This document shows positions 4,555 through 33,951 of a stretch of 62,402 nucleotides of DNA, in pieces. The stretch is from a virus: the IMG/VR virus record IMGVR_UViG_3300032241_001301, positions 1-62,402 of that record. One strand, written 5' to 3'. Each line of letters opens with the position of its first letter. The first letter of the stretch is position 1. Below the pieces are notes generated by a model. The model was not told where the DNA came from. It saw only the letters and a program-made list of their open reading frames with translations, and made no database searches. The position numbers were made by a program, and so were the translations under genes.

Positions 4555-4568
4555 TTCACTATCAACGA

Positions 4569-5831: not shown

Positions 5832-5841
5832 TATGTTTTCC

Positions 5842-6270: not shown

Positions 6271-6328
6271 AGTTTTGCATTCCTTTCGGGTCTGCGTAAA
6301 TGCTATACCTAGATTTCTAAATGTTATT

Positions 6329-14399: not shown

Positions 14400-15407
14400 C
14401 TATTGTCCGGTCACAGGGCCGTGGTCGTAAATAGTGATGCTTAGATTTGGCGATGTATCTTTAGTGAAAACAATGTTAGGTACTGGATTTCCAATGTAGC
14501 CAGAGCCAGAAGATGTTTGGTTCTGCGCCAACACGGCAATTGTCCATGAAAACTGATTATGGGGATATTGCTTTGCCCATTCGCCAGCCTTGAGGTTGGG
14601 TGGTGAATCATACGTTGGTGATGAAACGCCATTTATGTACTCAACCGCTCCACCGCTTGGCGTGTCTACTGCGTGGTTGTTTGACCAGATGGTTTCTGAA
14701 CCCGTTGGGCCGGTTAATGAAAAACTAATACTTGTGTGGTCGCCAGCGCAACTGTTGATTTTGAAACGTGCCGTCAAGGTGGCGGTATACATACGGTTTG
14801 GTAAAAACTGAGTGATAACACTTGCCGGAAGCGTGTTTGTTCCGCTTCCGTAACCATAGGTGTAATCCAAGTAAAAGTTTTTTGTCCCAGCAATAGTGGG
14901 GGTTCCACCAATAACAACCGTTTGCTTGACTGGCGTGGTGGTTCCATCAGGGTTGGTTGTTGTTCCCGTAACAATGTTGGTGGTATTTCCAGCAGCAGCC
15001 CCAACCACATACACCTCGGTGCCGTACACCAAACAGCGAACCGCCTGATTCATGACGGGCGTGTAGTTATGCTCAAACCGGCACCCGTGAATGGCAACAT
15101 TATCGCCAGCCAAAAACACACTTACCGCCGGGTAGGTCCCCGTTACTAGGGTGGACGAGTTAGTGTTTTCACTAGAAGATGTGTTGTAAACAGTTGGAAC
15201 TGGTTGGCTTGTTGCCACTGATTGACCAATACTGGCACCATTGTTGAATGACGGGTCATACCCAGCAATTGTTCCAAGTCGCTCCACCGCTTGTGGTGGT
15301 AAAACCATTTGCCCGTTGTTGATAAGGGCGTTTGTAAGGTCGCCAAAGTCAAACGGTGGCGTAGGACCAATACTTGGTGAACCGTTGTATTTGCTATAAA
15401 CCGGCAT
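14400..15407 (-). CDS. Virion-associated tail protein, unrecognised
   Basis: A 335-residue protein starting MPVYSKYNG at 15407 (15416 is an alternative); the longer frame into the upstream gene is not supported by a ribosome site. It is rich in Asn, Thr, Ser and Gly with alternating beta-strand patterns, as in tail tip or fibre proteins. It is the last gene of the tail module, overlapping the end of the DUF5047-like gene. The function is inferred only from position and composition. Confidence 0.6.
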   Translation of the reverse strand: MPVYSKYNGSPSIGPTPPFDFGDLTNALINNGQMVLPPQAVERLGTIAGYDPSFNNGASIGQSVATSQPVPTVYNTSSSENTNSSTLVTGTYPAVSVFLAGDNVAIHGCRFEHNYTPVMNQAVRCLVYGTEVYVVGAAAGNTTNIVTGTTTNPDGTTTPVKQTVVIGGTPTIAGTKNFYLDYTYGYGSGTNTLPASVITQFLPNRMYTATLTARFKINSCAGDHTSISFSLTGPTGSETIWSNNHAVDTPSGGAVEYINGVSSPTYDSPPNLKAGEWAKQYPHNQFSWTIAVLAQNQTSSGSGYIGNPVPNIVFTKDTSPNLSITIYDHGPVTGQ

Positions 15408-17136
15408 TGGGGTCATCCTGTGAGTATTCGGCAATACGAACAGCATCCTTGCGTGTACCGACACGACGCTCACGCATTGTAATCTCAATTTCCGTAGTGA
15501 AATCTAACGGAATAACGATTTTGTCAATGTAGTAGTTGACCGCACCATCGTTGCTAGTGATTTTGGGGTCAAGGATACTTACGCCAATCACATAGTCGTT
15601 TGTTGGGGTGAAAGGGGCAACGTTCAGAACCGTATTGGTGCTTGTGGCGGTTTGCGTGGTGGTGATTTCCTGTGTTCCAATACCCGTTTTGATAATCAAC
15701 GTTGTTCCGGCTGGAATGTCGTTTACCAAGGGCAACACCGTGATTTGTGTGTATGACTGGGTGTGCTTTAGGAACGTGTCAATTACTGCAACTACTTCAT
15801 AGGCGTTATACACGCCAAGACGCTTGCGCCGAACACGCACTACGTCATTTACGTCAAGCAACGGGTTTGGAACGCCCTTCATAACCATTTGGTCATCGCC
15901 ACCCGTGAACCAACTAAGAAAAGTCCGAGCGGCTACCTGTGTCTGCTGTAATGTGGTCAGCAGTTTGTGGCCCGGTTCGTAGGCGACGACACGCCCAAAC
16001 GGCCCGTTTACATACGTTGGTGAAGTTGGGTCAGTGTCTGAGGCCACGGCTTTGTATGGCTGGTTTAGGGTAATGCTTTCACCAGTGGCAATAACGAAGT
16101 TCACGGCTTTGGAGTCTGAAATAGTACGGCTTACATTGGTAAGTAAACCACCGGCTCCATCGCCGTTTCCATCAAAGAAATCCCATACAGGTTCCACCGC
16201 ATTAGGGTCCGCAATGGCAACCATTTTAAACTTGCCCTCCACGTCCACGTACAATTCACCAATTCCACCACCAACAGCGGCGGCCAATCCCGAAATGTCC
16301 GTCCACGGGCTGTTGGAGCCAGAATTGGAAACAGTGTGCGACCCCATAATCACGGGTACTTTTAGTGGTACGTCTTGTATTCCACTGAAATCAAATGAAT
16401 CGTCAGTGAGGGGCCATAAGGCTGGGTTGTTGGGCCAACGGTCATAAATCAACAGTTTGATTGCTTCTTGGATTCCAGCAGAAGCCAACGTAAGTCCGCC
16501 GTAGTTGTTTGGCAACGTGTACGTTTGCTGAATGGGGTAATAAGCATCAGCGGCACTATTTCCAACGTCAGAAGTTGAGGGCGCAACAATCGGGGGCTGA
16601 ACGCCAGCCTTCCAAATCGTAACGGGTTCAGTCCAGTGGTTTTTAGCAATGTTGTTGCTAACGTCCGTTCCGTCCACCGTGATAGAAACGTCGCCGTCCT
16701 TGTCTTCGGTTATTTTCAGCGAGTTGATACGAAATACGCCAACAGGGACTAGTTCATACGCACCATTGGCTGGTCGCAAAAAATCATCGGCAAGAGGGGC
16801 GTGTGCCGAATACACACCAGTCGCTTCCACCTCATCTATGTTCCAAACAATGCCACGATAAATGTACAGGTGATTGCCGTAGATGTTAAGTGGGTCGTAG
16901 TCCTTCATTGGAATCATCGAGGCATTTGTGCCGTCCGGTTGCTCCACAAACAAACTATTGACCACGATTTCACAAGTACGTCGAAAGTCTTGCGAGGTGC
17001 GGTCTGCGGTTACAGTCCCACTGACAATAGGAATGTTTGTCGTAGTGCCATTTACCGACAACGCTTTCACTAGAACCATTGGTCGGTGCGATGTTTTTAG
17101 GCTGTCTATGAACTTCTGTGTTGCCTTAGCGTACAT
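15394..17136 (-). CDS. Minor tail protein (DUF5047-like, tail tip/hub)
   Basis: A 580-residue protein. The first 60 residues, with FIDSLKTSHRPMVLVKAL and IVSGTVTADRTSQDFRRTCEI, match the start of DUF5047-type minor tail proteins, which lie at the tail tip after the tape measure and distal tail proteins. The middle holds a hub-like beta-rich region (DVSITVDGTDVSNNIA). Its ATG follows the stop of the giant tail protein by 2 nt, so the two are almost certainly co-translated. Confidence 0.68.
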   Translation of the reverse strand: MYAKATQKFIDSLKTSHRPMVLVKALSVNGTTTNIPIVSGTVTADRTSQDFRRTCEIVVNSLFVEQPDGTNASMIPMKDYDPLNIYGNHLYIYRGIVWNIDEVEATGVYSAHAPLADDFLRPANGAYELVPVGVFRINSLKITEDKDGDVSITVDGTDVSNNIAKNHWTEPVTIWKAGVQPPIVAPSTSDVGNSAADAYYPIQQTYTLPNNYGGLTLASAGIQEAIKLLIYDRWPNNPALWPLTDDSFDFSGIQDVPLKVPVIMGSHTVSNSGSNSPWTDISGLAAAVGGGIGELYVDVEGKFKMVAIADPNAVEPVWDFFDGNGDGAGGLLTNVSRTISDSKAVNFVIATGESITLNQPYKAVASDTDPTSPTYVNGPFGRVVAYEPGHKLLTTLQQTQVAARTFLSWFTGGDDQMVMKGVPNPLLDVNDVVRVRRKRLGVYNAYEVVAVIDTFLKHTQSYTQITVLPLVNDIPAGTTLIIKTGIGTQEITTTQTATSTNTVLNVAPFTPTNDYVIGVSILDPKITSNDGAVNYYIDKIVIPLDFTTEIEITMRERRVGTRKDAVRIAEYSQDDPNAGL

Positions 17137-17138: not shown

Positions 17139-20100
17139 TTATTGTCCATAGGTGTAAGAATAGCCACTGGGCGGTGGTGCCTCCACGTAAGTAATAGACA
17201 CCTCACGGTACGGAGAGCCACCGGAGTTGTGCGTCACCTTTACGTCGTCGCTGAGCGCAATGTAGCGACGCTCGCCTTCTACGGGGTCGGTAAGAACCAA
17301 AGTTTCACCAAGGTTGAGCATATTTATAAAGTCTTGCCAGTGTTCGATGTCCGTCCAAATGATGGTGATGGTTGCGTCCCGACCTTGCACCACACCTTGC
17401 GTGATGACTGGGCGTGACGAGCCAAGTGGGTAGAACACACCGACAGGGTGCTTTTGCGTTTCTTCCACCTGGTTCTGAACCAACACGGGGAATCGCAACG
17501 CAGGGTTGGACGTACTGCCGAGCCACCACGAGTTGGTCTGTAGTTTTGGTGATGGCAGTCCCGACACACTTACACCCGGTACCGACGTGCCGTTGATGTC
17601 AACAAATGTGGGGATTACTTGGTAGTAATTAACCGCATTTGGAATAACTTGTACGTCGGTTTGCAGTGCTACGCCGGTTTCATCAGCGGAAACAGCGTTT
17701 GCGCCGTACAAAGTTGTGTACGTGATTCCACCATCGTCACTGCGTTGGACGTTGTAACTGTATGTGGTGTTCGGAGTGTTGATGTACCCATCATTGTTGT
17801 AGTTGAACACGCCAACCAGCGTTCCGGCTTTCTGCGTGTGCTTTAGACCATTGGTAATCAACGTAACCGTAGCCGAAACGATTTCACCTACATTGTGGTT
17901 GTACACAAGGGGGTCGTTTAGAGCCACCGTTTCTGTTCCGTCCCACGCACTGCTTACGTAGTTTGTTTCATTTGTTTGCCCCGAGCCAATAGTTATTTCA
18001 GCACCACGAGCCAAGCCATTGACGTTATTCAACGAAATGGTTTCGTCACCTGCCAAAGCATTGGAAGCAATCGCATAAGACGCACTTGTGGGTGACGTTC
18101 CACGGTGAAGTTCACGGGTTGAGTTGTCATTGGTTGGGTCAAACAAGTACAGCGTATTTACACCAGATGTTGGCGTGGTCTGCGGAATAGCAAACGTGTT
18201 CACCGGAGCATTGAGGGGGTTTGGCGTTTGCGTCAATGCTGGCAATAGGGTGTTTAGGGGTACGTAGGTGTTGTCGGGTAGGTGGGGTGTCATGGCTTGG
18301 AAAATAAGCCCTGACACGGCATACACGTCACCACTTTGGGTGTTGCTGAACTGTATACGAGGGCAAGCGTAGGTCGCTTGTATGTTCAGGGTGTACGAAC
18401 CACCGGCAGTTTTGGGGCCGTTGCGATTGGGGAACTTGACGGTAACCGAGGTATCCGCATCTACGGGCTTGGAAATAACACCGTTTGCCACGCCCTCGAC
18501 GGTGATGTTCGTGCCTTGCGCCAAAGTCAAAACGCCATTTGAGGAACTGTTGAAGGTTCCACCATTTTGTGGGTTGGCAGGGTCGGTTGGCGTGTACTTA
18601 GCCCCAGTGAAAACGGTAAGGGGGGGTGCCTTGAATACAATGGCGCTGGGTTGCCACGCAATGCTAGTGAAATCCGACGATGGCATCGTTCCGAGAGTAT
18701 TGAAGTAGTTTTGTTCGCCCGTCGCCAAACTGGTTGTTCCGTCGTCTGTGACTAGGAAGTTTCCAGCATTGTCGTACCAATCGACCAACAACTTGAACGT
18801 CGGCTCAACAGTGATGGTGAATGGCAGTTCGGTAATAACCCCAAGAGCAGATGCAATCGCAAACTCCTGCGTGGGAACCAACGTAAGTTGCGTGGAGTTT
18901 AGAACGTTATCCACTGTGGTGTTGATGCCATACAATACGTTTTGAACCGTAGAGCCAACCGTAATGCCCGTAGTGTCAGAAATGGTAATGGTGTTGCCAC
19001 TAACTGCCGATGGGGTCACTGTAATTGAATCACGCTTAGGAACATACAGGCTTGTTCCAAAACCGGCAAAACCGTAGGTCTGTCCAACATTGACCGGAAT
19101 AGCGTTTTGGTTGTTGAAACCGTTAGCACTGTAAGTAGTGATTTCACCAAACGTGCCTGATGCTGTGATTTGCAAAGCATTGGCACCGAAAGGACTGGGG
19201 ACGCTGAAAAGTACGGGAATGTGCCGGTCAAACGAACGCCGTGAACGGAATGGAATAACCGGAACGCTTGTGCTTCCTGCTGGAATGACAAACGAGTTAG
19301 AGGCATACACCGTAATGGTTTGTTCAGTGGCATACGTTGTACTGGTGACAGCAGGGACGTAGCCAACGTTTCCACCAAAGTAAATAACCTCAAGTCCACC
19401 GCCCGGTGAGTACAGATTGGTAACAACGGTTCCGACAGGAAGCCCCTGCGCTTGGATTACCGAACCGGCGCTTACTCCCGTGACAGAGGTTGATACTGAA
19501 AAGGCGTTGAAGGCGTAGTTGTTTGCGCCAGAAGGGTATGTACCGCTACTGCTGATTTGGGTAAAGGTAGATGTCCCCGTGTCGTACCAACCCATAATCG
19601 CATCAGCATAAATGGGGGGTGCGTTGAAACCAATTCTAAATGGTTCACTGAAACTGTATTGCGTGGGAACAAGTTGGTTCCCATTTACCTTGTGTGCTGA
19701 AATGTCTTTTGTACCAAGGCTTGTGTGGGTGGCACCAGCACGGGTGTTGTAAAAGTTTGCCGAGTCGTACTTGTGAAGCAACAACCCTGCTGGCAGAACC
19801 GTAGATTGACCAGCCGATAGGGTGAGTTCCAGCACTTGTCCGTTGCCCTCAACGGGTACTGCCTCGGTAATGACGTAGTAAACCTTGGCGTTTGGTGGAA
19901 TGTATGCGCACGCAACTACCTTGTTTGTTGCAGGGTCTTTGAAAGAAAAGGCAAAATCACCAAAACTTGCCAAACCATTTGAGACGTTGAGGTTTAGTGG
20001 GTTGTAACCATTGGCACTGGCAGAACCCTTAGCGTAGATTGCCGCAAACGGGTCGAATGTTTGGGAAAGGGTGAACGCAACTTGGACATTGTTGCGAATC

Positions 20101-23100
20101 CACGGCGTTTCACCAGTGGCTGGTGTAAATGCGTTAGAGCCTCCGTTGGGCGTAGAAACACCGTCAGGGTTGTTGATTATTTCTTTGGCATCTGTCCCAA
20201 CAAGCAAATAGTCCCCTACGGAAATTCCAGCAACTCCCGAAAGAACAAAAGTATTGCTAGTTGCTGTTCCAATGTCGTAAGAAACATACGTGTTGTAGTC
20301 GGTAACTACACTTCCACCAGCCGATGAACCCGTGTAACCATTCACACCTGTGAAAGTAACGGTGTCTCCTGAAATGCCAGTTACTTGACAAATTCCAACA
20401 TCAGTACCCCACGAACCGGGGTGCCAACAAACGGCTGACGCAATAACGGCGTAAGGTGCTTTTTCTCCCGAGGGGTACGGCAAACCGGGGACTACTGAAA
20501 TAGTGGGGTCATTCAGTGCTTGGAAAATGTAGTTGTATCCAAACTCGGATGCCCCAGCCTGAAGCCAAGCGGCAGTAGCCTCTGCCCCTCCGTCAGGGCT
20601 GTGGAACCTAAGAAACTTTCCTGCTGGTTGAAGGCTGGCAGGACCAGACCAACCCCCCACACCGGGAATGGTTATGGTCTTGTAAGTACCCGGAGAGGGC
20701 GCAGTGCCACCTTCCCACCAAGAAGAACTTGGTGAAATGTTAATGGGGTTGTTGTAGGCAACTTCATTTCCTTCAGCAGTTGACCAACGCAAAAACGCTT
20801 GCAATGATTCTTGCGACGGGTTTCTGATGCCGTAGGCCGACATAAACGTGTAAACCCATTCTGGGTAGTTTTTGTTTTCACCAAAAATAAGTTGCGTGTA
20901 TTCTCCGCCAGTCGGTGGTCGGAGGTCGGGAATGAACTTGCTAGCGTCCCAAGTATCCACCTCAATAATGATTTGGTCACCTGCGGAAAGTTTGGGATTT
21001 TTCTTTGTTCCAAACTTTTGCTTGAACGATTGGATGTCATTGGCGTTGAAACTTGTTCCTGTTGGGGTGGTGAGCAGTTGGATGGTCTTGCCCAAAGCAC
21101 CCGCCCCTGTGCCGTTTGACGAGTAGCCAAGTGAACTTGCCGTAGAAGCAATGTAGCCCGAGTTGTATTGGTCGGTAATGGAACCGCCAGTGGTTATGCC
21201 AAGTAGCCAGTTGGCAATTTGGTCGGCAACGCCATTGCTGTTGCCGGTGGCTCCAATAGTGGCCTTGAGCAAAGCGGTCTGAACTGCTTGCACCGTAAAT
21301 GACGATTTTGGCTTTGGCGGAAATACCAGCGTAGGGTTAGGAGGGGACCCCGGTGCTGGGGGGACGGTGGTGCTAAACGTAACCTCATCGCCTGGCTGGA
21401 TTCCACCACTTGTAGAAATAACGTACACAATGTTGTCGGCAGTGGGCAACCCGTCGCCATTTGGAATAAAGATTGACTGACCCGTAATACTGGTGGTAAC
21501 CGCCGGACCTTGCGTGGTAGTTGGCAATGTAGCCGGAACGTCGGCAACCAATACAAGGTCTTTTACCTGTTCCTGTGCTTGGGTGGCTGGGTAGTTGAAG
21601 TAAACATTTCCTTCATAACCAGCGTAAATGTCGTTCTGCAATCCGTAGGTCACGGTGGCGTTGAGGCTGTGACTGGCTGGGGTCGTTCCCAAGTAGCCAC
21701 GCTGAATAATTTGGAGTTCACTACCTTGGCCCGTGGACTTTGGAACAGTCTCCACCAAGATTTTTTCACTACCAACCAATACCCAGTATTGCTTACCCGG
21801 CAAGGGGAAGCCAATGGCCTCAGTAGCAAGGGCCTCGTTCATCACGACTTGCGTTCCGCTCGCAGTAGCGGCTTGGCTGAACTTGAAGTTCCACGTGACA
21901 TTTGAGGCGGTTTGACTGGAATACGCCACACTCAAAAGCGACGTAAGCGGTGGGAAGTTCTTGCTAACCACCAACCAGTTCAGGGGAATGTTGGTGTCGT
22001 TAGGCAAAGTTACGCCCGTGACAGTGTTGCTACCTGCCGTAACCGTACCCGTAATGTAGAAAGCGCCAGCGGTGTTTTCCGCCGTATTACGGATTGTGTT
22101 GCCGGTTACTGAAAAAACACCCGTACCCGTTCCGCTAAGTGCGCCAACGTCAGAAATGGAACCAACCGCACCAATAGAAATTTGTGTGTAGGTAGAACCA
22201 GCCACGAGGTCTTGCCCCAAGGTGATTCCCGTACCGCCGGAGTCCAAAATACTGTCGGTGTCATTGGCGGTGGTGTGCCAACCGCTTGCTCCGTTATCAA
22301 AAGAACCGTTTTGCGCCGAGAACAAGTTGTCGGAGGTTTGGATTGACAACTTGTTTGCTGAAATAGAAGCGTCGGGGCTTACGGCAACAAGTGGCGGAAG
22401 AGGTTGCTCAACGGTGGTGGCAAACGATGTAGCAACCCAATCGGTGTACTCGGTTTGCGCTTCCTTTTGCTTCAGCACTCGAACAAAGGCAACATACGTC
22501 GCCCCATTGACATACCCGTCGCTCCAAGTGATAGCCGATGAGGTGTATGGCCCCCTGCCGACAGTGTGAACCAATGGATTTGTGGAATCTGGTGAAAAAA
22601 ACTTGGAACTAGCAACTGCAGCGTCGTAAATCTTTATTTCGTAGCCAACTGGCGGAACCGTCTTGATGCCGTCGTTGTACACCCAGTTGATGGTGTAGCC
22701 GTTTTGCGCAGGGTCACCACTTTGAGAAACGGTTTGGTAGTTGCCGTTGATACGCTCAAACAAAACGTTGCTTGACGGTGCCATGTAAACAGAATCAAGT
22801 TGTCCCTTAGGGCGAATAACAAAAACACCCCGAGTGGAACGGTGGAGGGTTTTCTTGCCAGCAGGCGTAGTAGTGGAAACACGAATGGCGGTGGTGTGGA
22901 GGTCGCTTGGCTTCCACTTTCTACCACTTGGGTGCGTGCTTCTCTTTCCCCCCATACGAACTGTGTGGGTGGGAACGTTGAGGTTGTTTGCGAACTGCGA
23001 AAGGGTGTCAAGTGGAACAACGTCGCCGGTCTGGGTGTCCAACAATTCTAGTGAAATCTTGTCGTTTCCATTCGTAGAACTTTGGGCGGCGTGGTGAACC

Positions 23101-26100
23101 TGAACCGAACTGATTTCAGAGTCAATCCACTTCTTACCGTTGTACGTCTTTAGTTTCTTGGTGTCAGGAGTGATAACCGTATCGCCCACGTGAGTAATCG
23201 GTTTACGGTAGTACGTGACAGTGGTGTTATTGCTGTGTGGGTACAACATCGGACGAGCAAGTGACAATCGCCACGGGTCGCCGGTAGGCAACAAAACTGG
23301 TGGAACCGCCGGTACAAGTTCTTCCGTGTTGTTGCCGTCGTTCATGTTGTAGACGGGGGGCGTGGTGATTGAAGTTCCATTGGTATAGAACGAAATGCTT
23401 GATTGGTCAGATACCGAGTTGGTGGAAAGGTTTAACAGCCACTCGGTAATAGACACACCGTTGTACAAAAGTGGTGAAATCATAATTTCACTACCGCTTA
23501 TGGGAATACCAACTAATTCGCACGTTGGCGAATTTCCGGTCCACGACCAAAAAATGGTATTGGTGTTGTCGCAATAGAAATTTAGCCCCCCACTTACTGG
23601 TGCCAAACCTTCTGACGTGAAAGACCCCGACGTGAACGAGGCAATGTTCGCAATATAAATGTTTTCACTAATGTTGAATACCAAGAAACCGTAAAACCAC
23701 TCCATAACGCCATTGCTAACTCCCGTGGTAAGGGTGGTGTCGTTGTAGTACGTGACAGTTCCGCTGGAATTTACGGACGCAACCGCTAATCCGCCCGTGG
23801 TTCCCAACATCCAAATAAGTGTCCCGTCATACGCAATGTTGCCCAACAGGGTCATACCGGAAATGACACCGTGAGCGAAGGCGTTTCCACCAGTATCCCA
23901 ACGCAATAGGCGTTGCGTTCCATTGTTATCAGCAACATACAAGTATGTACCATCAGAAATAATGTTGTTGTTGACCGAGGTAATGCTGTCGCCAATAAGG
24001 GGAACTGCGGTAAACGTTCCAGACGTAGACACCTTGTACACGGTTGGTGATGTTTCACCGGCACCAGCCCAACCACTTGTCCACAAGTTTCCATCGGGAC
24101 CTAAGCACAAAGAACCATTTTGATAAGTGGGGAACGGCGTACTATACGTAGTGAAAGTACCCGAATAGGACATACGGACAAGCAACGTTCCGTCGTCGTT
24201 GTAATACCAAATCGCCCCGTCGCTTCCTGCGCAAGCAGATTGGAAAACACCAGAAAAGTAAGTGCTTGCCGGAAAGAAGTTCTCAACAACTCCGGTTGGT
24301 GAAATTTTGAAGATACCCACGTTGCCTGTGTTTGAGAATCCATAAAGGTTTCCGTCGCCACCGACAACCATGTTTTCCAATCCACCGTAGTACGTCGTCC
24401 CACCGCCCGACACAACGGTAGTGGTGGAAACTGATTGGACAAATGCCGAGGCTCCACTGAATACGTCGTTACCTGACCCGTCAAAGATTTGCTGACCAAC
24501 ATGGATAGAGCCACCATTTGTGGTAGCCACAACGTTAGAGCCACTAGTTACTGAACCAGTAAAAGCAATGCCCGTGGGGTTATCGTCGTAGGCGTAGTTT
24601 GGTGAAAAAGGTTCTACGACAATTGACGTGGCATCAAAACTTGGCGTTTCGGCTACGACTAACGATTGCGAAATTGGAAGTTCTGGCTCTAGAGAGTTAC
24701 TCGCAACAAGAACAATGGGGTCACCGGCAAGGATTTGGTTAGGCAAACCATATGAAGCGACGGTTCCACCATTGACATTCCCGTTGTTCCAACCAAACAG
24801 CGCACCGTTAGAAACGACAGAACACTCGTGGCTAAACGTTGGGACGTATGGCTCAATGGTGATTGAGGTGTCGCCTACGTTGGCACTTGACGCAAGGGTA
24901 ACTTGGTCGCTGTGACCGCCAGAGGAAAGGTGAATAGTATCCCCTGCGGACAAAGCAACTGCCAATGGGGTTGTGTAGACAGTGGTGAAACCAGTGTTGG
25001 GAGTTTGCCCAATTGCCGTCGGCAGTCCGGCGTAAATGTTGATGGTTTGTGTTCCGCTAACTGTGGCACTTGCCGGTCCGATAGCACTATTAGTCCCATA
25101 GGCGTTAGTGAAATACCCTAATGTAACTGTGCTTCCCGATACGTTCTGAATAAACGAACCCAACGGAACACCCTCACCCTGCACCTCAAAGGCTGCCCAG
25201 AGGCTTCCGTAGGCGGAGTCGTTCAAGAATGGCTTGGACAGTACGGCTGTGCTTGTGGTGGAATCAAACGACACAATGTACGTGTCTTTTTGGATAGAAG
25301 CGTCACCAAAAATACGCATACCGATTTGTGGGGGGGAATAATCAAAAGACAACGTATTTTGACCGGCGGTTCCACCACTTGACGAATACACCGAACCCAT
25401 CAGTTCCGTAGAACTAACCACGCCAGTTACGGATGCGCTTCCTTCGGTTAGCACACCTGTAAAACTGCGATTTAGGCGGAAGTTTGGAACGTAAACGCTG
25501 TTGTACCGTGAGGAAGGCGAAAGTGCGCCTACGTGGACTGGCGTTCCGTCATAGTAGTTATTTGCCGTGTTGCTAAACAACAACACATCAACGGCATTAG
25601 TTGAGGAAACCGACGATGACGGGTTTCCACCATAGACGTAGTAGTAATCCGTGCCAATGCGAACGGAAAAAAGGTCTTTCGGAAGGGATGTTTCCGAAAG
25701 GACTAGTGAAATCGTATTGGTGCCGGAAGCCGTGTACCCAGCCAAGCGACCAACTTCAGGGGTGACAAAGTTGGTGGTGTTGTAAGGGGTATCAAAGTTG
25801 TCGGGGAAACCACTGATGTTGGTTAGCGTGATTGAGGTGTCACCAGAACTAGAACTGTTGATAACCGTTGCCGAGGTATTTGGGGTGTTCTTTGCGCCGA
25901 CAGGCACAAGGATTGGTGAAAGGCCAAGTGTAAACGTGGCAGTAGTGGCAACTTGACCATTGGTGTTGTCTACAACAACCGAGTTGATTCCTTGGTTTCC
26001 AGCACTGTTGTCCGCACCACCCAAAATCGGCGCTTCCTTGGCGTGCTGATTCGCAAATCCCGTTGTCTTGATGTTTGGAACAAAGACGGGTTCGCCAACA

Positions 26101-29100
26101 GCGTGAGGGTAGGAGAAGGCTTGACCCTTTGCCAGTTGGAACGTTGCTGGTGAAACTGTGTTGCCCGTTTCTTGCCCCGACGTAAAAGCGTAGTTGGTGG
26201 TGAAAATGACACTTTCTTGGGTGTCGCCTTGACCAACAACCATAACGCCCCACACGTCAGGGGTAAAGGTGAACGTACCGTCCTCTACCGCCGAGGCCGT
26301 GGCGTTATTGGAAATGCCGATTTCAGTACCACGAACATACGTCACAAACGTATTTGCTGGGATGCCAGCACCCGTTACGTTCCACCCGACGCTCGGGCGA
26401 CCGCCATTCGTAGGGTTGGTGTTCCACACGGCGGTGATGTAGTTGTTCCCCTCGTAGACCGTACAACCCTTCAGGGACGTTCCACTGGTGATTGGGAAGC
26501 CCTGTGTGGCGACATTGCCATACTGGTCGTAGTACGTTCCACCAACAAGGTTGCTGGTGTTCTTTAGTGGGGCAACAGTAGCGGACGTAGCACCAGGGTT
26601 GACTGACTTAGAAAGGGTCGTTCCAAACAACGAACCAATGTTGATTGGTGAAAGGGTTTCCAAGTCGCCAACCGTAGACGAACCAAAGTAGCGATTTCCC
26701 TTGTCGTATGAAGAAACCGCTGTTCCAGCATCGTGGTTGCCTGTGATGTTGCCACGCAAGGCAATAACGCCAGCGCCACTGCCATCTTGTAAAGGCGTGG
26801 TGAAAGCCGAGGCAATTGGAACGGTATTGGTCACGGGGTAAATGGAGTTTTGATTGTTGCCATTTGGGTAAGCACTTGTATTGACAAACTTTCCACCAAC
26901 CGGCAACGGCTTGTCCACGGCCCACATCAACGCTGTGTTCTTGGTTGCGTTGATACCCAAGCAAACAAGGCGACTTTTGTTGTAAATGTATTGTGGCGTG
27001 TAGTTGACAAACGTACCGCTTTGGTCGCCTTCACCAGTACCGTCGAGAGGGGCGTACTTGATGGGGTACGGCTGACCGTCATTGTCCTCAAGGAAAACCG
27101 TGTAGACGTTTTCACCATTGGAAATACCGCCCGAAACAATGGAGGAAACAAAAGCATTGCTGTAGCCAGCCCACCCTTCAGGGTTTAGGCCACCCACCGA
27201 ATAAGGAATGTACACCACGTCGCCAATGTTGATGTTGGCGATTGCTGATTCACTTACCTGACAAATACCGTTATTGGTGGTGGCAATGTTGCCAGTCCAA
27301 ACGTTCGGCGTGGCGACACTAAGGTTTTCAGTACCCTCAACTTCCATCGTGTACGTCGAAGATGTGCCGTAATACGAACCGCTAACAACCGCTTCACCAA
27401 CAACAATGCGAGTGTTGTACGAATCGGCGTGGGTGACGTGGTAGCCGTTGAATACGTTGGTTGTTCCGCCGACATACTCGCCAATGTAAATGTTGTAGTA
27501 GTTGGCGGTGAAAGAAGAAAGGGTGCTGGTGCTGGTGGCGTTGGCAGACAGGGTGATTTGATTTGCCGTGTCTACCGATTCAATGACCGTTCCAGCAGGA
27601 ACGTATGTTCCGCTTACCGCCATGCCAACCAAAAGCCCTTGCGTATTTGGAATGTTGTTGATAACCGCCGAGTTGAACGACGTATTGCCAGTAAACGTTT
27701 TTGTGTCCACCACGGGGTCGAGCGTGGCGTTACTGCTTAGTAACACGCTTGACACGGCTGGGGAGTAATGGCTTCCGCTAACGCTCAAAGTGGTGAAACC
27801 GCTGGCGTATGCCTGTCCGATAGAAACACCAGTCAAGTCTGCAATCTGCACTGGTGGGGTGGCAATGATTTGTGCAGTTACCGTGGTCCCGCCATCTACG
27901 CCACTTTGAAAAAAGTCTGGGGTGAACGTAATGGTTGTACCCGATACTGCGGTAATGGTAAGGACTCCACCCTGCGTTCCAAAGAAAACAAGGTTTCCAC
28001 CACTACCGCCCTTGATAAACAGTTGGCTACCAACCCGAATGTCGCCCTTCACCGAGGACACGGTGGCAGTGTTCTCGGCGTAAGTTCCACCACTGGCGAT
28101 AAATGTTCCAACAAAAGTGGAAGATTGGAATACATTGGCGTACTTTTCAGTACCTGAAACAAAACTGTTGTTGTTTCCAATGGTGGCAACGCTGGTGGCA
28201 TTAGTTAGTGGCGTATTGCTAATGCTGTTGATTTTTACGGGCAAAATCAACAAACCGCCGTAGTTCGGATTGTTGTATGGTGAGGTGGCGACATAAGGTG
28301 CTGAAAAGAACTCACACTTGTACCCAACGCCCCCATCGGTGTTGAGAAGGGTGGTGTGTCCCTCAATGGTTGCGCCAAAAGCCGTAGCAGTGGACACGGT
28401 GTACCCAACAGTAAGTTTTACCTTGCCACTGCCCGTTGCCGGTTGCGAGAGATAAACGTACCCGTTGTATCCATTGAGTTGGATGGTTTCAGTGGTTCCC
28501 GCCCACACTTCAGAAAGGGTAATTGTTCCGTCGCCGGTGTTGATACCGGCAATGGTGTAGTTGGCACCGTACAACTGGTTGGTGCAAATAACCGTTCCCT
28601 GCGTAAGACCGTAGAAAACTGACGAATATGACGTGTTGGTTTCCGTCAGGGTGACGGTGGTGGAACCATTAGTAACCTCACCGACAAACGAAAATGTTTG
28701 TGCGTACATTGGCTCGGTGGTGAAGTTCTCAAACGCTGGCAAACTAACCGTTTGCGTAGGAGTGTTGCTAACGGTGATGTAGCCGTCCGTGGTGTTGATG
28801 CCGATAATGCACGTTCCGTCAGGGAAGTAGTTGCTTGGCGCAAGGATTTGCCCAACCGAAAGTCCAAACATACCGTTGGACGTGTAACCACTGGGGAGTG
28901 TGGTGGAAGCAACGTTGATGGTGTTTACGCCCGTGGCAAAAGACCCCTCAAAGGTAACGGGCTGACCGCTTACATACGCATCTTCTACGCCATTGGGGTT
29001 AGCAACCGTGGTGGTGCCAGATACATAACTGCCCGTGACCGACATTCCAGCAAGGAGACTCCCCTGCACTTGGGAAACTGGCGACATAAGGACGGACGTA

Positions 29101-30632
29101 TTGGAAACCAAAGCGTCAAAAGTAAAGGAACTTTTGTATCCACCGCTAATAGTGAAATCGTAAACGGCACTAGTTAGTTCGGCGCTACTTCCTGATGCCG
29201 TAGTTGTTTTGCTGATTACAACCGTAACTGAACTGCCAGAACCCGATGAACTAACGACGGTTGCCCCTGCTGGAATACCCGTTCCAACAACGTATTGTCC
29301 GGCAACCACCGTTGCTCCGCTGAGAAAACCCGTCAAGTGGGTGGTTCCGCTTGCCCACGTCAAAGAAGTGTCGTTCGCATTTCCTAAAGCAACAAACTGG
29401 TCGCCCGTAGCAGTTCCACCAGCACCCGTCGCAAGGGTGATGTATGTGCCAGAAACTGACGTAATGGCGTTTTCAGTAACATACGACGTGTGCGTGGAGT
29501 CGTTGACAAGCATCCCCGGTACGAAACCGTTGTATGCCGAAAGGTTGGTGATGTGCGTTGAGCCGGTGGTGACGTTTCCCACGAAGCCAACATTGGGAGT
29601 TGGCAATACAAAGTTGCGCTCGTCAATGCCGGTAATGCCCAATACATAAGGCGTAAAAATGTCATAGTTGGTGTAAAGAACGCCATTGGTGCTGTCAATA
29701 GAAATAATCTTTCCGCAGTTCCAACCAGTCGGAACAGGATTTTGGTTTGTGGATTCCAAACCAAAATAAACCGTGACAGTTTGCCCCACGGCAAAACCCA
29801 CGGTGGTGGAAACCAAAATCTGCGTCTTGCTGTATCCAACAATGATTTTGTTTACAAATGGTGGGCTGAAAATGCCAGCCGTAGCGTCGGGAAGGATTGT
29901 GTTCAGGTTGGACAAAGATTGTTCGTCTGCTGAAGCGGAAATGTACATCGGGGCGACACTGCCGTTTCCTACGTAATAAGGAAGCGGTGGATTGCCCTCA
30001 ATGTTGGGGGAATAAATGTTGCTGGAAAAGAACTGACCAACAGCCTTATTCGCCGGTGGGTTGTAGAAAGACAGGTTCGGTGACATAACCGACGAAATGT
30101 TGCCCGACCCTTGTGGCAACATAAGTGCTGAAAGGGGGAAATCAAAAGGGTCAATGGATTGGTTGCTGGGCGTTGTTGGAACAAGACCCGTGGCTCCGAC
30201 CTCAAGCCACTCGCTAAATGGTGCGTCAGTAGATGTAGCGTCTGGTGAAAAAATGACTTGGTTGGTCTGTTGCCCTTCCAAAATAGCAAGCACTTGCCCT
30301 TCAGAAGTTTTTTCGATTGAGTCTACGTAGATAAAAGTGTCGCCACCTGAAGCCGAAAACGTGCCACTTGACCCGTCATTGGGGTTGCCTACAGTGGTGT
30401 TGAGGCTACGAGTACCAGCCGTAGGTTGCGTGGACTGCGTGTAGTTGGTGAAAAACTGGTCAACGTGTTCGGCGTTGCCGTAATACGTGTAACCCGATTC
30501 ATCGGGGATTGGCGCAGTACTGAAATGCGTAAAGTCATTGAGAGCAGAAGCAATGTCGCTTCCGTCGCCCACCACCGTAATTGTTCCGTTGGAGTCAATA
30601 GTTGTTGATGGAATAGCAACAATGGGCTTCAT
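17139..30632 (-). CDS. Giant tail protein (4497 residues) with lysozyme-like and beta-propeller domains
   Basis: One uninterrupted frame of 13.5 kb. It lies directly after the tape measure gene, where distal tail and tail-lysin proteins are encoded. Residues about 340-1050 and scattered later copies hold beta modules of the form F-x-G-x-V-x-x-GS-x-x-V ... VG-x-x-V ... ITLS. About 2085-2375 is a propeller of streptogramin-lyase type (repeats such as GGDGNLYGF, GSDGAIWYY, GPDGNLWTS). A fibronectin III-like part is near 2650-2730. About 3250-3405 resembles a lysozyme-like cell-wall hydrolase (FLRWSTAEGNEVAYNNPINI, catalytic Glu near 3285). The end (WTDIEHWQDFINMLNLGETL, GERRY) resembles minor tail protein C-termini. 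It probably spans the tail tip, reaches the host surface and opens the wall. Confidence 0.85.
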   Translation of the reverse strand: MKPIVAIPSTTIDSNGTITVVGDGSDIASALNDFTHFSTAPIPDESGYTYYGNAEHVDQFFTNYTQSTQPTAGTRSLNTTVGNPNDGSSGTFSASGGDTFIYVDSIEKTSEGQVLAILEGQQTNQVIFSPDATSTDAPFSEWLEVGATGLVPTTPSNQSIDPFDFPLSALMLPQGSGNISSVMSPNLSFYNPPANKAVGQFFSSNIYSPNIEGNPPLPYYVGNGSVAPMYISASADEQSLSNLNTILPDATAGIFSPPFVNKIIVGYSKTQILVSTTVGFAVGQTVTVYFGLESTNQNPVPTGWNCGKIISIDSTNGVLYTNYDIFTPYVLGITGIDERNFVLPTPNVGFVGNVTTGSTHITNLSAYNGFVPGMLVNDSTHTSYVTENAITSVSGTYITLATGAGGTATGDQFVALGNANDTSLTWASGTTHLTGFLSGATVVAGQYVVGTGIPAGATVVSSSGSGSSVTVVISKTTTASGSSAELTSAVYDFTISGGYKSSFTFDALVSNTSVLMSPVSQVQGSLLAGMSVTGSYVSGTTTVANPNGVEDAYVSGQPVTFEGSFATGVNTINVASTTLPSGYTSNGMFGLSVGQILAPSNYFPDGTCIIGINTTDGYITVSNTPTQTVSLPAFENFTTEPMYAQTFSFVGEVTNGSTTVTLTETNTSYSSVFYGLTQGTVICTNQLYGANYTIAGINTGDGTITLSEVWAGTTETIQLNGYNGYVYLSQPATGSGKVKLTVGYTVSTATAFGATIEGHTTLLNTDGGVGYKCEFFSAPYVATSPYNNPNYGGLLILPVKINSISNTPLTNATSVATIGNNNSFVSGTEKYANVFQSSTFVGTFIASGGTYAENTATVSSVKGDIRVGSQLFIKGGSGGNLVFFGTQGGVLTITAVSGTTITFTPDFFQSGVDGGTTVTAQIIATPPVQIADLTGVSIGQAYASGFTTLSVSGSHYSPAVSSVLLSSNATLDPVVDTKTFTGNTSFNSAVINNIPNTQGLLVGMAVSGTYVPAGTVIESVDTANQITLSANATSTSTLSSFTANYYNIYIGEYVGGTTNVFNGYHVTHADSYNTRIVVGEAVVSGSYYGTSSTYTMEVEGTENLSVATPNVWTGNIATTNNGICQVSESAIANINIGDVVYIPYSVGGLNPEGWAGYSNAFVSSIVSGGISNGENVYTVFLEDNDGQPYPIKYAPLDGTGEGDQSGTFVNYTPQYIYNKSRLVCLGINATKNTALMWAVDKPLPVGGKFVNTSAYPNGNNQNSIYPVTNTVPIASAFTTPLQDGSGAGVIALRGNITGNHDAGTAVSSYDKGNRYFGSSTVGDLETLSPINIGSLFGTTLSKSVNPGATSATVAPLKNTSNLVGGTYYDQYGNVATQGFPITSGTSLKGCTVYEGNNYITAVWNTNPTNGGRPSVGWNVTGAGIPANTFVTYVRGTEIGISNNATASAVEDGTFTFTPDVWGVMVVGQGDTQESVIFTTNYAFTSGQETGNTVSPATFQLAKGQAFSYPHAVGEPVFVPNIKTTGFANQHAKEAPILGGADNSAGNQGINSVVVDNTNGQVATTATFTLGLSPILVPVGAKNTPNTSATVINSSSSGDTSITLTNISGFPDNFDTPYNTTNFVTPEVGRLAGYTASGTNTISLVLSETSLPKDLFSVRIGTDYYYVYGGNPSSSVSSTNAVDVLLFSNTANNYYDGTPVHVGALSPSSRYNSVYVPNFRLNRSFTGVLTEGSASVTGVVSSTELMGSVYSSSGGTAGQNTLSFDYSPPQIGMRIFGDASIQKDTYIVSFDSTTSTAVLSKPFLNDSAYGSLWAAFEVQGEGVPLGSFIQNVSGSTVTLGYFTNAYGTNSAIGPASATVSGTQTINIYAGLPTAIGQTPNTGFTTVYTTPLAVALSAGDTIHLSSGGHSDQVTLASSANVGDTSITIEPYVPTFSHECSVVSNGALFGWNNGNVNGGTVASYGLPNQILAGDPIVLVASNSLEPELPISQSLVVAETPSFDATSIVVEPFSPNYAYDDNPTGIAFTGSVTSGSNVVATTNGGSIHVGQQIFDGSGNDVFSGASAFVQSVSTTTVVSGGGTTYYGGLENMVVGGDGNLYGFSNTGNVGIFKISPTGVVENFFPASTYFSGVFQSACAGSDGAIWYYNDDGTLLVRMSYSGTFTTYSTPFPTYQNGSLCLGPDGNLWTSGWAGAGETSPTVYKVSTSGTFTAVPLIGDSITSVNNNIISDGTYLYVADNNGTQRLLRWDTGGNAFAHGVISGMTLLGNIAYDGTLIWMLGTTGGLAVASVNSSGTVTYYNDTTLTTGVSNGVMEWFYGFLVFNISENIYIANIASFTSGSFTSEGLAPVSGGLNFYCDNTNTIFWSWTGNSPTCELVGIPISGSEIMISPLLYNGVSITEWLLNLSTNSVSDQSSISFYTNGTSITTPPVYNMNDGNNTEELVPAVPPVLLPTGDPWRLSLARPMLYPHSNNTTVTYYRKPITHVGDTVITPDTKKLKTYNGKKWIDSEISSVQVHHAAQSSTNGNDKISLELLDTQTGDVVPLDTLSQFANNLNVPTHTVRMGGKRSTHPSGRKWKPSDLHTTAIRVSTTTPAGKKTLHRSTRGVFVIRPKGQLDSVYMAPSSNVLFERINGNYQTVSQSGDPAQNGYTINWVYNDGIKTVPPVGYEIKIYDAAVASSKFFSPDSTNPLVHTVGRGPYTSSAITWSDGYVNGATYVAFVRVLKQKEAQTEYTDWVATSFATTVEQPLPPLVAVSPDASISANKLSIQTSDNLFSAQNGSFDNGASGWHTTANDTDSILDSGGTGITLGQDLVAGSTYTQISIGAVGSISDVGALSGTGTGVFSVTGNTIRNTAENTAGAFYITGTVTAGSNTVTGVTLPNDTNIPLNWLVVSKNFPPLTSLLSVAYSSQTASNVTWNFKFSQAATASGTQVVMNEALATEAIGFPLPGKQYWVLVGSEKILVETVPKSTGQGSELQIIQRGYLGTTPASHSLNATVTYGLQNDIYAGYEGNVYFNYPATQAQEQVKDLVLVADVPATLPTTTQGPAVTTSITGQSIFIPNGDGLPTADNIVYVISTSGGIQPGDEVTFSTTVPPAPGSPPNPTLVFPPKPKSSFTVQAVQTALLKATIGATGNSNGVADQIANWLLGITTGGSITDQYNSGYIASTASSLGYSSNGTGAGALGKTIQLLTTPTGTSFNANDIQSFKQKFGTKKNPKLSAGDQIIIEVDTWDASKFIPDLRPPTGGEYTQLIFGENKNYPEWVYTFMSAYGIRNPSQESLQAFLRWSTAEGNEVAYNNPINISPSSSWWEGGTAPSPGTYKTITIPGVGGWSGPASLQPAGKFLRFHSPDGGAEATAAWLQAGASEFGYNYIFQALNDPTISVVPGLPYPSGEKAPYAVIASAVCWHPGSWGTDVGICQVTGISGDTVTFTGVNGYTGSSAGGSVVTDYNTYVSYDIGTATSNTFVLSGVAGISVGDYLLVGTDAKEIINNPDGVSTPNGGSNAFTPATGETPWIRNNVQVAFTLSQTFDPFAAIYAKGSASANGYNPLNLNVSNGLASFGDFAFSFKDPATNKVVACAYIPPNAKVYYVITEAVPVEGNGQVLELTLSAGQSTVLPAGLLLHKYDSANFYNTRAGATHTSLGTKDISAHKVNGNQLVPTQYSFSEPFRIGFNAPPIYADAIMGWYDTGTSTFTQISSSGTYPSGANNYAFNAFSVSTSVTGVSAGSVIQAQGLPVGTVVTNLYSPGGGLEVIYFGGNVGYVPAVTSTTYATEQTITVYASNSFVIPAGSTSVPVIPFRSRRSFDRHIPVLFSVPSPFGANALQITASGTFGEITTYSANGFNNQNAIPVNVGQTYGFAGFGTSLYVPKRDSITVTPSAVSGNTITISDTTGITVGSTVQNVLYGINTTVDNVLNSTQLTLVPTQEFAIASALGVITELPFTITVEPTFKLLVDWYDNAGNFLVTDDGTTSLATGEQNYFNTLGTMPSSDFTSIAWQPSAIVFKAPPLTVFTGAKYTPTDPANPQNGGTFNSSSNGVLTLAQGTNITVEGVANGVISKPVDADTSVTVKFPNRNGPKTAGGSYTLNIQATYACPRIQFSNTQSGDVYAVSGLIFQAMTPHLPDNTYVPLNTLLPALTQTPNPLNAPVNTFAIPQTTPTSGVNTLYLFDPTNDNSTRELHRGTSPTSASYAIASNALAGDETISLNNVNGLARGAEITIGSGQTNETNYVSSAWDGTETVALNDPLVYNHNVGEIVSATVTLITNGLKHTQKAGTLVGVFNYNNDGYINTPNTTYSYNVQRSDDGGITYTTLYGANAVSADETGVALQTDVQVIPNAVNYYQVIPTFVDINGTSVPGVSVSGLPSPKLQTNSWWLGSTSNPALRFPVLVQNQVEETQKHPVGVFYPLGSSRPVITQGVVQGRDATITIIWTDIEHWQDFINMLNLGETLVLTDPVEGERRYIALSDDVKVTHNSGGSPYREVSITYVEAPPPSGYSYTYGQ

Positions 30633-30663: not shown

Positions 30664-33600
30664 TTAGCGACCCCTAGTTTTCAGGGTGTAGCGCAACGGT
30701 TTCAGCACTTGTTCATTGACGTGGTGTGCCACAAGGTCGGCAACGTGTTGTGGGTCTGTAGTTCCATTGACGTTGATTTGGATAGCCCCAGAGGCCACCT
30801 GAACGGTGCCACCACCAATGCCTGCGGTATTACCACTAGCGACCGCTGTAGCACTGTGAGCAAGGGCAGTAGCAGTGCTAGGGCCACCAATGGTGGAAAG
30901 CGTATTGACGTGGACCGCCCCACCAAGCCACGGTATCCACCCCGTTAGGGCATCCCACGCTTTAATAATCAAGTTCACCGTATCAACAAACCCGTTGTAC
31001 ATACCGTCCCAAATCGTTGTGCCAAGTTTGGTGATGGTGTTCCACAAACTAGTGAACCAATCGCCAACTGCGTCAAGGCCCTTCATGATTTCAGTACCAG
31101 CCCACTTAGCAGCATCAACAATGGCGTGCCAAACGTCCACAACAAACTTCTTTACGGTGTTCCAGTGGGTCACTAGCACGTAAGTGATGGCAATCACACC
31201 AGCAATAGCAAGAACCACAAGGGCAATGGGCCACGTAGCCGCAAAAACAGCAACAGCAGTAGCGGTCCAACCGGCAATCATTTCCGCAAAGAAGCCAACG
31301 CCTTCTGCCATCAAACCAGCCTCTTCGGCTGCGATAGTGGCGTTGGATGCCGTAGCAATAGCAGTTATTTCACCATAGGCGGCATTCGCTTCCATTGTCA
31401 TAGTTGCGTATTTTGTGGTGGTTTCGGCAGTAGCGGTAGCCGTTTCACCACTTACAGCCGTTGCCATTTCGGTAGTAGATGCAACCGCATCGCTAGCGGC
31501 CTTAGAAAAGACCGAACTAAAGACGTTGCCCAAACCGCTAACCATGTCCTTGATGCCGGTGAACATTGGACCAATCCCACTAAGCACCATAGACAGTTGC
31601 ATAGCGGAATTAGCCATGGTTTGGAAATCAACCGATTTCTTTGTCCCTATGTTCCCAAGGGTGGAGAACGACGAAAGATTAGCAAAGGGGTTTCCACCCA
31701 TAAATCCCATCGCAGCCATCCCAGCGCCCATACCAGCGCCCATAAGACCGCCACCCATACGACCCATACCGCCAAGTGCGCCAAAGAAACGACTGCCACG
31801 CATAGATTTGGCAATGTTTTCACTAGCAATAGTTTGCTTGACAGCGGATTCGGCAAGAAGGGCTTGCGCCTCTGCTGTTTTGGGGTTGGAAAAATTGTCG
31901 CTAACGTACAAACCGTTCTCTTCCCTAGTGAAACTTCCAAACCCAGGCACGTTCTCCACAGCCTTAGCAACGTTTTGGGCGGTGTTGCTTCCCGACCCAC
32001 CAATACCCATTTCCGTAATTTGTGCAAGGGTCTTTTCTTGAACGTCAAGTTGTTCGTGAGCGACTTCCACCAAAGCGTTGCTGTTCATACGCTGGATGTC
32101 CTCGGGAGACAAGTTGCCCAAAAGGTAGTTCTTTAGTGCCCCGGGATTTTGTTGGCGAATAGCGGCATACAATTCACCACGACGTTCTTGACGGAAAGCA
32201 GCCTTTTCTGACGGACCCTGCATCTGAGTCATTGTCCGGTAACGTTCAGCCAAACGAACAGGCATTTCACCACGGTTGACCAGTTCGTTGATTTTGCGAT
32301 AGGCAAGTTCCTCTTGACCCTTACCAATGCCAAGGCGATATTGACCTAAGTATTTCAGTGGGTTGGCACCACTAAGGTTCCCGAAAGCGGACTTCTGCAC
32401 CACCACAAGGCGTTCCAGTGCCTTCATAGCCAGTTCGGCACCTTGACCAATAGCCTTGAAGGGCATAAGGATTGCGTTAATAGCAAACTTGGCACCAAAG
32501 AAAGCCAACAACGCCCCTCCGGCAATTTCAAGAATTCCGTTCCAGTGCGTCGCCCATTTGGTCACGTCATCAACAATGCGAACCAACCAACCCTCGACCT
32601 TGGCAAAGCCCAATGCAAATGTGGTGAACCACTTTGCCCCCACCTCAATAAGGGGGGCGATAGCAATAAGAATGTTGGCAAATGCCGTAGCCATAGCCGG
32701 AAGGATAGGCATAATGGCCTGCAACACCGCTAACCATGATTTCATAAGTGCGTCCAACGTTCCGTCGGATTCCATTTGCTTAAAAACCTTCATAAGAGCA
32801 TCAAGACCCGGCATGAGTGCCTTTACAATTTCGTCAGCCAAAGCACTGAAATCGGCAAGGAGAGTTTTTATCGCTTTGTTGTTGAACAGTGAGTTCAGGT
32901 CGGTAGCGATAGTGGTAATAAACCCAAAGATTGGCTGAAAAATACTCATAATCGCTGGGATAATGCCGTTCACCATAAGGTTGATAAGCGGTTGAAAGGC
33001 CACCAGCAAGTTACCAATGTCTTTACCAATGGCGGTGGCGATTGGTGTGAAGGCCGAGGCGGCCGCTGTGATGACGTTTAGCAACGGCTGAAGGGTAACC
33101 GTCAGGATAGATGCCATTTGGTCAAGGATTGGAAGCAGACCCGTGCCAAGTGTTTGCATCAGGAGGTTGAGGTCGTTCTGCATACGCTCAACCGGCGACA
33201 TAGCGGCCTCAGCAGCACCCTTGGTGTGTTTGTTAATCAACTGCAAAAACTGTTCCTGCGCCGCCATAAGACCGTTCATGGCCTCAGTTCGCCCAATGCG
33301 CAACTGTTCTTGCTTAGACAACTGAATACCCATACGGGTCATTGCGCTCATGTGCTTGGCTGGGTCAGCCATAACACGAGCCAACATACGTGCTGAACTA
33401 GTAAGACCGCCACTACTGTTTCCCATTACTGCCGCTACGTTGGCGGCAACACTCAACGTCTGCTGGAAAGTTTGTGGCATTTTTTTGTAAAGATTTGCCA
33501 AGTCTTGGTTCGGGAGCAAAAGGTTCTGCGCCTGAACAATTTGGTTCTTTTGGATACCCGTTTGTAGTGAAAGGGTAGTTGCTTGTTGGTTAAGAACCTT

Positions 33601-33951
33601 GGAATACTGTTCGCCGTCTTTTTTCAGCGCACTTACTGAACCGGCAACGGTAGAAAGGTTGCCGACAAATGCCGCACCGGAAAGACCTTGGTTCTTGATG
33701 AGGTTAGCCTGAACTGCTTGGATGCTTTCCTGCTGGGAAGCCAAGTCCATGCCCTTGTCGATAATGTCTGCGACACCACCAATAACAAAGGCTTTGGTTA
33801 GAACGCCACCAAGGTCGCTAAACAAACCGCCCATTTTGCCCGTAGCGGCTTGGGTGTAGGCCACCATTTGGTCAAGGGCTTTATGTGCCGGTGCTGGGTC
33901 AAGGTCAAGCATCGCTCGGATTTCAGACCCGTTGCTCATTGTGTCACTCAT
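30664..33951 (-). CDS. Tape measure protein
   Basis: A 1095-residue protein, long, helical and Ala-rich, with extended hydrophobic stretches (for example ALMPGLDALMKVF, IMPILPAMATAFANILIAIAPLI) and a C-terminal Gly/Val-rich part. It follows the frameshifting tail assembly chaperone, as tape measure genes do. From the usual rule of about 1.5 angstrom per residue the tail would be near 160 nm. Glycine-methionine repeats (GGMGRMGGGLMGAGMGAGMA, about residue 735) form a flexible section. The ATG at 33951 has GGAAGGGGG upstream. No peptidase motif is apparent within it. Confidence 0.93.
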   Translation of the reverse strand: MSDTMSNGSEIRAMLDLDPAPAHKALDQMVAYTQAATGKMGGLFSDLGGVLTKAFVIGGVADIIDKGMDLASQQESIQAVQANLIKNQGLSGAAFVGNLSTVAGSVSALKKDGEQYSKVLNQQATTLSLQTGIQKNQIVQAQNLLLPNQDLANLYKKMPQTFQQTLSVAANVAAVMGNSSGGLTSSARMLARVMADPAKHMSAMTRMGIQLSKQEQLRIGRTEAMNGLMAAQEQFLQLINKHTKGAAEAAMSPVERMQNDLNLLMQTLGTGLLPILDQMASILTVTLQPLLNVITAAASAFTPIATAIGKDIGNLLVAFQPLINLMVNGIIPAIMSIFQPIFGFITTIATDLNSLFNNKAIKTLLADFSALADEIVKALMPGLDALMKVFKQMESDGTLDALMKSWLAVLQAIMPILPAMATAFANILIAIAPLIEVGAKWFTTFALGFAKVEGWLVRIVDDVTKWATHWNGILEIAGGALLAFFGAKFAINAILMPFKAIGQGAELAMKALERLVVVQKSAFGNLSGANPLKYLGQYRLGIGKGQEELAYRKINELVNRGEMPVRLAERYRTMTQMQGPSEKAAFRQERRGELYAAIRQQNPGALKNYLLGNLSPEDIQRMNSNALVEVAHEQLDVQEKTLAQITEMGIGGSGSNTAQNVAKAVENVPGFGSFTREENGLYVSDNFSNPKTAEAQALLAESAVKQTIASENIAKSMRGSRFFGALGGMGRMGGGLMGAGMGAGMAAMGFMGGNPFANLSSFSTLGNIGTKKSVDFQTMANSAMQLSMVLSGIGPMFTGIKDMVSGLGNVFSSVFSKAASDAVASTTEMATAVSGETATATAETTTKYATMTMEANAAYGEITAIATASNATIAAEEAGLMAEGVGFFAEMIAGWTATAVAVFAATWPIALVVLAIAGVIAITYVLVTHWNTVKKFVVDVWHAIVDAAKWAGTEIMKGLDAVGDWFTSLWNTITKLGTTIWDGMYNGFVDTVNLIIKAWDALTGWIPWLGGAVHVNTLSTIGGPSTATALAHSATAVASGNTAGIGGGTVQVASGAIQINVNGTTDPQHVADLVAHHVNEQVLKPLRYTLKTRGR

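Follow-up and report, generated by a model that had tools for sequence, protein, structure and literature searches.

What kind of gene fills 13.5 kb between the tape measure and the hub of a phage genome, and is it one gene at all? The window, by which we mean the whole stretch of DNA analysed here, covers a linear virus record from end to end (62,402 bases). The initial annotation described a single open reading frame without a stop codon over this distance, lying directly after the tape measure gene, and both descriptions hold. The features that frame the question are as follows:

17139..30632, minus strand: the giant gene, a single ATG-started frame of 4,497 codons encoding 4,497 residues (469 kDa, pI 4.5)
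30664..33951, minus strand: tape measure protein, 1,095 residues (PHROG, E 7e-19)
15394..17136, minus strand: DUF5047 / phrog_1887 tail protein, 580 residues, probable baseplate hub
14400..15488, minus strand: next tail gene, kept after the hub in relatives (25–33% identity)

The start ATG at 30632 is preceded by an AAGGG motif, the stop codon ends at 17139, and the ATG of the next gene lies two bases further on. The tape measure has 24% of the length of the giant, in line with the quarter first estimated. At this composition, a frame of such length would stay open by chance with a probability of about 10^-89. A codon-usage model, trained on five other virion genes, preferred frame 1 in each of 88 slices of 300 nt across the gene, and no hidden frameshift was seen in these slices. 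The reading frame of 4,497 codons is real.

Clues to the setting come from the neighbours. The tape measure matches Microbacterium phages, and the hub matches Brevibacterium, Streptomyces, Rhodococcus and Actinoplanes phages; in Streptomyces phage Samy, the homologue of the hub bears a baseplate-hub annotation. On the basis of these sequence matches, the virus falls in an actinophage neighbourhood. Two scans of bacterial genomes found no host, and a DNA-level search against phages gave no useful match.

Several other genes on the minus strand of the window are worth recording. Two adjacent major-tail-protein paralogues of 251 and 599 residues (34606-35361 and 35465-37264) share 32% identity across their first ~245 residues, the longer one having a C-terminal extension of ~350 residues. 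A collagen-like protein of 2,525 residues (42547-50124; Pfam collagen, E 8e-48) has a Gxx tract spanning residues 169-435 and other, shorter tracts, and is directly followed by a glycosyltransferase-2/methyltransferase fusion (41283-42527), which might glycosylate it. A GHxFxGNQ[YW]T motif occurs in six copies in five otherwise unlike proteins (4072-6432 and 60542-62368). Finally, a protein of 180 residues (59833-60375) with a hydrophobic N-terminus and the sequence CIMWHESRS...GGIFQF is possibly a lysozyme-like enzyme, with a weak match to Phage_lysozyme2 (E 0.08).

Relatives of the locus were gathered by scans with the tape measure, the N-terminal part of the giant (N-part), the hub and the C-terminus. 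Seven related viral contigs (L012, L014 and L047-L051) carry the same string of domains between the tape measure and the DUF5047 hub, in the same order and with the same neighbours, but as two genes with a variable cut. In every relative that covers the region the locus runs from the tape measure (where reached) through the arm region and the C-terminal part (C-part) to the hub, and the hub has 55–57% identity to that of the closer relatives. One of the contigs, L014, comes from the Trout Bog epilimnion (IMG 3300000439; PMC5636890), and similarity and record numbers suggest a lake origin for the other contigs as well; the phage of the window is likewise a freshwater one. The giant divides with respect to these relatives as follows:

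22986..30632, minus strand: N-part, residues 1-2549, a separate gene of 2,971-3,270 residues in relatives
29403..30632, minus strand: residues 1-410, a conserved N-terminal stretch sharing 43-50% identity with the closer relatives
22968..22988, minus strand: fusion junction, residues 2549-2555
17142..22970, minus strand: C-part, residues 2555-4497, a separate gene of ~1,560-1,620 residues in most relatives

In L012, L013, L014, L047 and L048 the first gene encodes 2,971-3,270 residues and the second ~1,560-1,620. The giant matches the first gene over residues 1-2052 and ~2394-2549, these blocks being about 35-50% identical, and the second over residues 2555-3168 and 3507-4496. The two genes together encode 3,300-4,890 residues where complete. 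We therefore reject the idea that size makes the giant a different kind of protein, because the relatives hold as much sequence in two genes. It is of interest that relatives 92-99% identical to each other differ by the gain or loss of blocks of ~100-200 residues, so that the arm appears, on sequence grounds, to evolve by block exchange.

The position of the cut varies. In the L012-type arrangement, which corresponds to residue ~2550 of the giant, the stop codon of the first gene is followed by ~50 nt that include a 25-bp conserved element; the second gene then starts at a GTG with a Shine-Dalgarno-like GGAGA before it. Across the whole viral collection, seven contigs have the element, AAATCGCTTTAGTGGGGTARGATTT (L012:15871-15922 and the equivalent site in other relatives), in a single copy apiece, and every one is a relative showing the L012-type split. 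A search of the window that tolerated three mismatches did not find it. Within the element, TARGAT resembles a −10 box and is promoter-like. In L034/L051 and L037/L049 the cut falls ~30 residues earlier (~2520), and the stop codon overlaps the next start within GTGA or ATGA. In L036/L050 it falls near residue 1560, with GAGGG before the ATG. The three positions indicate that one domain string has been divided into genes at different places.

These comparisons bear directly on the possibility, raised in the initial annotation, that an assembly error has merged two genes. A search with the junction peptide found no second contig with exactly this fusion, and the single uninterrupted frame is peculiar to this virus. 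Against an error, the window is ~80 nt shorter than L012-type relatives at the junction, and this difference is in frame and removes the stop, the spacer and the start together. Base composition and codon usage are even, and the same protein string occurs at the same place in independently assembled contigs. Moreover, the second gene of L036/L050 (2,204 residues) runs unbroken through the position of the window junction (25% identity over ~340 residues, E 1e-27), and a continuous chain across it is therefore present in two independent assemblies. Since the frame, the codon usage and the relatives all agree, we reject an assembly artefact as highly improbable. The related concern that the frame represents several separate proteins is partly borne out by the relatives, in which the string is two genes; in the window it is one frame.

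Judged by comparison of the sequences, two tail genes, kept apart in most relatives, are joined in frame in the giant gene. The direction of the change may be fusion or fission: the word "fused" is used here in comparison with relatives that include no outgroup bearing the N-part. A related suggestion is that the giant is a polyprotein, made as one chain and cut in the virion into an arm and a ring protein. The relatives do produce two chains from the same string. They separate the two by gene boundaries and not by processing, however, and neither a protease nor a cleavage motif could be recognised, so this appears improbable.

The domains within the giant have been further analysed, and those that could be delimited are as follows:

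28743..29363, minus strand: cluster of ~60-residue "TGIP" beta modules, residues 424-630 (HMM from relatives)
23454..24476, minus strand: insert 1, residues 2053-2393, Vgb-like beta-propeller (unmatched in all seven relatives)
20115..21128, minus strand: insert 2, residues 3169-3506 (without a match in the seven relatives)
20385..20909, minus strand: lysozyme-like candidate within insert 2, residues 3242-3416 (motif only, WSTAEG...NNPIN)
17853..18092, minus strand: small beta-barrel module, residues 4181-4260 (AF2 model, structure alignment)
17142..17540, minus strand: C-terminal ring-forming domain of tail-tube/Dit type, residues 4365-4497

The giant was originally thought to contain many beta modules, a propeller, a fibronectin-like region, a wall hydrolase and a tail-tip C-terminus. 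Several beta modules can indeed be recognised. An HMM of the TGIP module, built from the relatives only, gives nine matches in the giant and none in 20 shuffles per protein; further copies or part-copies beyond the main cluster are at residues 980-1037, 1399-1448, 1724-1838, 2861-2912 and 3715-3740. Single copies of this module also occur in two other minus-strand genes of the window, one at 53135-53845, a neighbour of the head genes that is partly like a head scaffolding family, and one at 50146-50862, which precedes the collagen-like protein. The small beta-barrel at residues 4181-4260 resembles a domain of the phage Mystique tail tube protein (9n71; Z 11.7, rmsd 2.5, 24% identity). The fibronectin-like region could not be substantiated: no fibronectin type III match was found in the giant in Pfam. 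Residues 2647-2787 are weakly similar to residues 184-328 of REQ1 Orf79.

The two inserts, of ~340 residues each, are private to the window when compared with the seven relatives. In insert 1, residues ~2088-2212 match virginiamycin B lyase structures (PDB, E 2.6e-9), which bears out the propeller, and no such match was found in the relatives tested. The match to the Pfam virginiamycin B lyase family covers positions 60-176 of the 290 in the profile (33.1 bits, E 3.5e-8), below the curated cut-off of 50 bits. Because the profile covers less than half of the enzyme, the sequence of insert 1 is best described as propeller-like and not as a Vgb enzyme, and we make no claim of antibiotic degradation. 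Insert 2 contains WSTAEGNEVAYNNPIN, which is reminiscent of lysozyme-like domains, and is an unproven candidate for a lysozyme-like wall hydrolase. The hydrolase is not established by the searches: no family or fold match to insert 2 was found in Pfam, NCBIfam, the PDB, phages or viral contigs, an approximate, self-written consensus query of 107 residues for a lysozyme-like domain found nothing, and a single-sequence AF2 model failed to fold (pLDDT 33). Statements of absence made here apply to these collections and at these sensitivities.

At the C-terminus of the giant, an AF2 model of residues 4080-4497, made from eight sequences, has a mean pLDDT of 57, with the ring domain mostly at 70-84 apart from a dip to ~40 near residues 4390-4420. 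Residues 286-418 of the model were aligned using VIA-align to ring and tube proteins with Z scores of 7-10: contractile-injection-system baseplate ring proteins (10.1, 9.8 and 9.7), phiCD508 (9.7), the lambda tail tip (8.7), the phage p2 baseplate chain 4v5i_AS (8.6) and the SPP1 tail tube (7.4). Foldseek taken by itself gave weak matches (E 0.004-0.08), among which SPP1 Dit was listed with a probability of 0.96. The last ~130 residues are modelled, with middling confidence, as a tail-tube ring fold, a fold that many tail proteins share.

The sequence of this region agrees with the modelled fold. A single slot gene between the tape measure and the hub is found in Madraxi, REQ1, Jflix2, Shagrat, AGM1 and VWB, with one small extra gene after the tape measure in Samy and Rowa, and the giant likewise lies between the tape measure and a DUF5047-type hub. 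A C-terminal HMM made from the lake viruses was run against 763 ORFs of these eight actinophage loci, and all eight slot genes were among its nine matches; with the Rhodococcus sequences added, it found slot genes only, always towards the C-terminus (Samy 4.5e-7, VWB 6e-5, AGM1 0.008, Rowa 0.009). It matched no other ORF of the window. The slot proteins of the four Rhodococcus phages match directly (E 1e-7 to 1e-10). In REQ1 Orf79 and Madraxi gp26 (1,326-1,333 residues), which share both slot and neighbours with the giant, the C-terminal ~200 residues are homologous to it (26% identity, E 5e-10 to 1e-11), and the top viral fold match, G9FHI6, equals REQ1 Orf79 in length (1,326 residues). These proteins are 3.4 times shorter than the giant, and have no detectable N-part, propeller or insert 2.

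The slot proteins of Streptomyces phages VWB, Samy and Rowa (738-759 residues, phrog_16363) and of Brevibacterium phage AGM1 (286 residues, phrog_11649) are six to sixteen times shorter, and show weak C-terminal homology to the giant after one profile round. That of Samy is annotated with a putative hydrolase domain. PHROG links AGM1 gp17 (286 residues) to the C-terminal end of the ~750-residue Streptomyces proteins (E 2e-7). One slot therefore holds proteins of 286, 738-759, 1,322-1,333 and 4,497 residues with the anchor at the C-terminal end. By sequence, homology links the last ~130 residues of the giant to the C-terminal ends of the slot proteins of Rhodococcus phages and, weakly, of Streptomyces and Brevibacterium phages. 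The tail-tip C-terminus first proposed is thus supported by both the modelled fold and the homology.

Siphophage Dit/DTP proteins, such as SPP1 Dit and the DTP of mycobacteriophages Claus and Corndog, resemble the giant in having a ring fold and a place between tape measure and hub. In those mycobacteriophage baseplates that have been solved, the layers under the tube consist of a distal tail protein hexamer and a hub trimer, in 6:6:3 stoichiometry and with accessory proteins around them, and the ring domain of the solved distal tail proteins is N-terminal (PMC13252515). The canonical order, with a second domain at the C-terminus, is not that of the giant, in which the ring domain (4365-4497 of 4497) is C-terminal and preceded by a huge arm. 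Because the order is reversed, we propose that the giant works like these proteins, and do not claim that it is one of them.

On the basis of these observations, we hypothesise, with a probability of about 0.7, that the phage is siphovirus-like and that the giant is its tail-tip (Dit-slot) protein, anchored by a ring domain at the C-terminus and bearing an N-terminal arm of ~4,300 residues composed of beta modules. It occupies the slot that is filled by the distal tail protein in studied actinophages. The slot and the ring-type domain together point to a hexameric ring with N-terminal arms: the C-terminal domains of six copies would assemble into a ring that lies between the hub and the final ring of the tube, and the remaining ~4,300 residues of each copy would hang from it as an arm, made of small beta domains plus a propeller, which may hold or sense the cell surface.

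Alternatively, the giant could be a tail fibre or a receptor-binding protein and use a tube-like adaptor to dock on the ring, the true distal tail ring being a different protein. Most of the chain looks adhesin-like, its domain order is unlike that of solved distal tail proteins, and one of the two major-tail-protein paralogues (251 and 599 residues) could be a specialised terminal ring. However, there is no other candidate for the ring between the tape measure and the hub, and the AGM1 slot protein has a ring domain in just 286 residues, which leaves little room for a fibre. We regard this alternative as rather unlikely.

The initial annotation suggested a very large tail-tip or wrapping structure. 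The slot and the ring fold argue for the tail tip. The great length and repeated modules would suit a protein that wraps the tail tube lengthwise, but the conserved anchor, a ring domain, sits at one end of the protein, and a string of ~4,740 residues accompanies the shortest tape measure (814 residues). In the six genomes in which both are complete, an underpowered sample, string and tape measure lengths show no clear relation (rho 0.64, p 0.17). Wrapping is therefore rejected, and we find it scarcely credible.

Returning to the tail-tip protein, the fusion would set the ratio of arm to ring at 1:1, which relatives with ATGA or GTGA overlaps may reach by translational coupling, and insert 2 may cut the wall. 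A fuller and more tentative proposal is that one polypeptide combines the ring, six adhesive arms of ~4,300 residues and a wall-cutting domain (~2.8 MDa if hexameric), from a string that relatives cut variably. This is possible but speculative; if true, the fusion would be direct evidence that arm and ring are paired 1:1 in other lake phages.

The giant is the largest single chain seen here in the slot, yet no record among phages. The largest phage protein in a 2021 survey was the 7,312-residue baseplate wedge initiator of Prochlorococcus phage P-SSM4 (PMC8553790), also a baseplate-associated giant and 1.6 times longer. The protein is an enlarged, fused member of a known actinophage tail-tip family, and not a new kind of machine. 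It links the very large and mostly unannotated tail proteins of lake viruses to the tape measure–ring–hub module of actinophages, and extends a size series within one gene slot (286, ~750, ~1,330 and 4,497 residues) that keeps a conserved C-terminal anchor. As a natural fusion, it predicts which tail proteins touch one another in uncultured phages.
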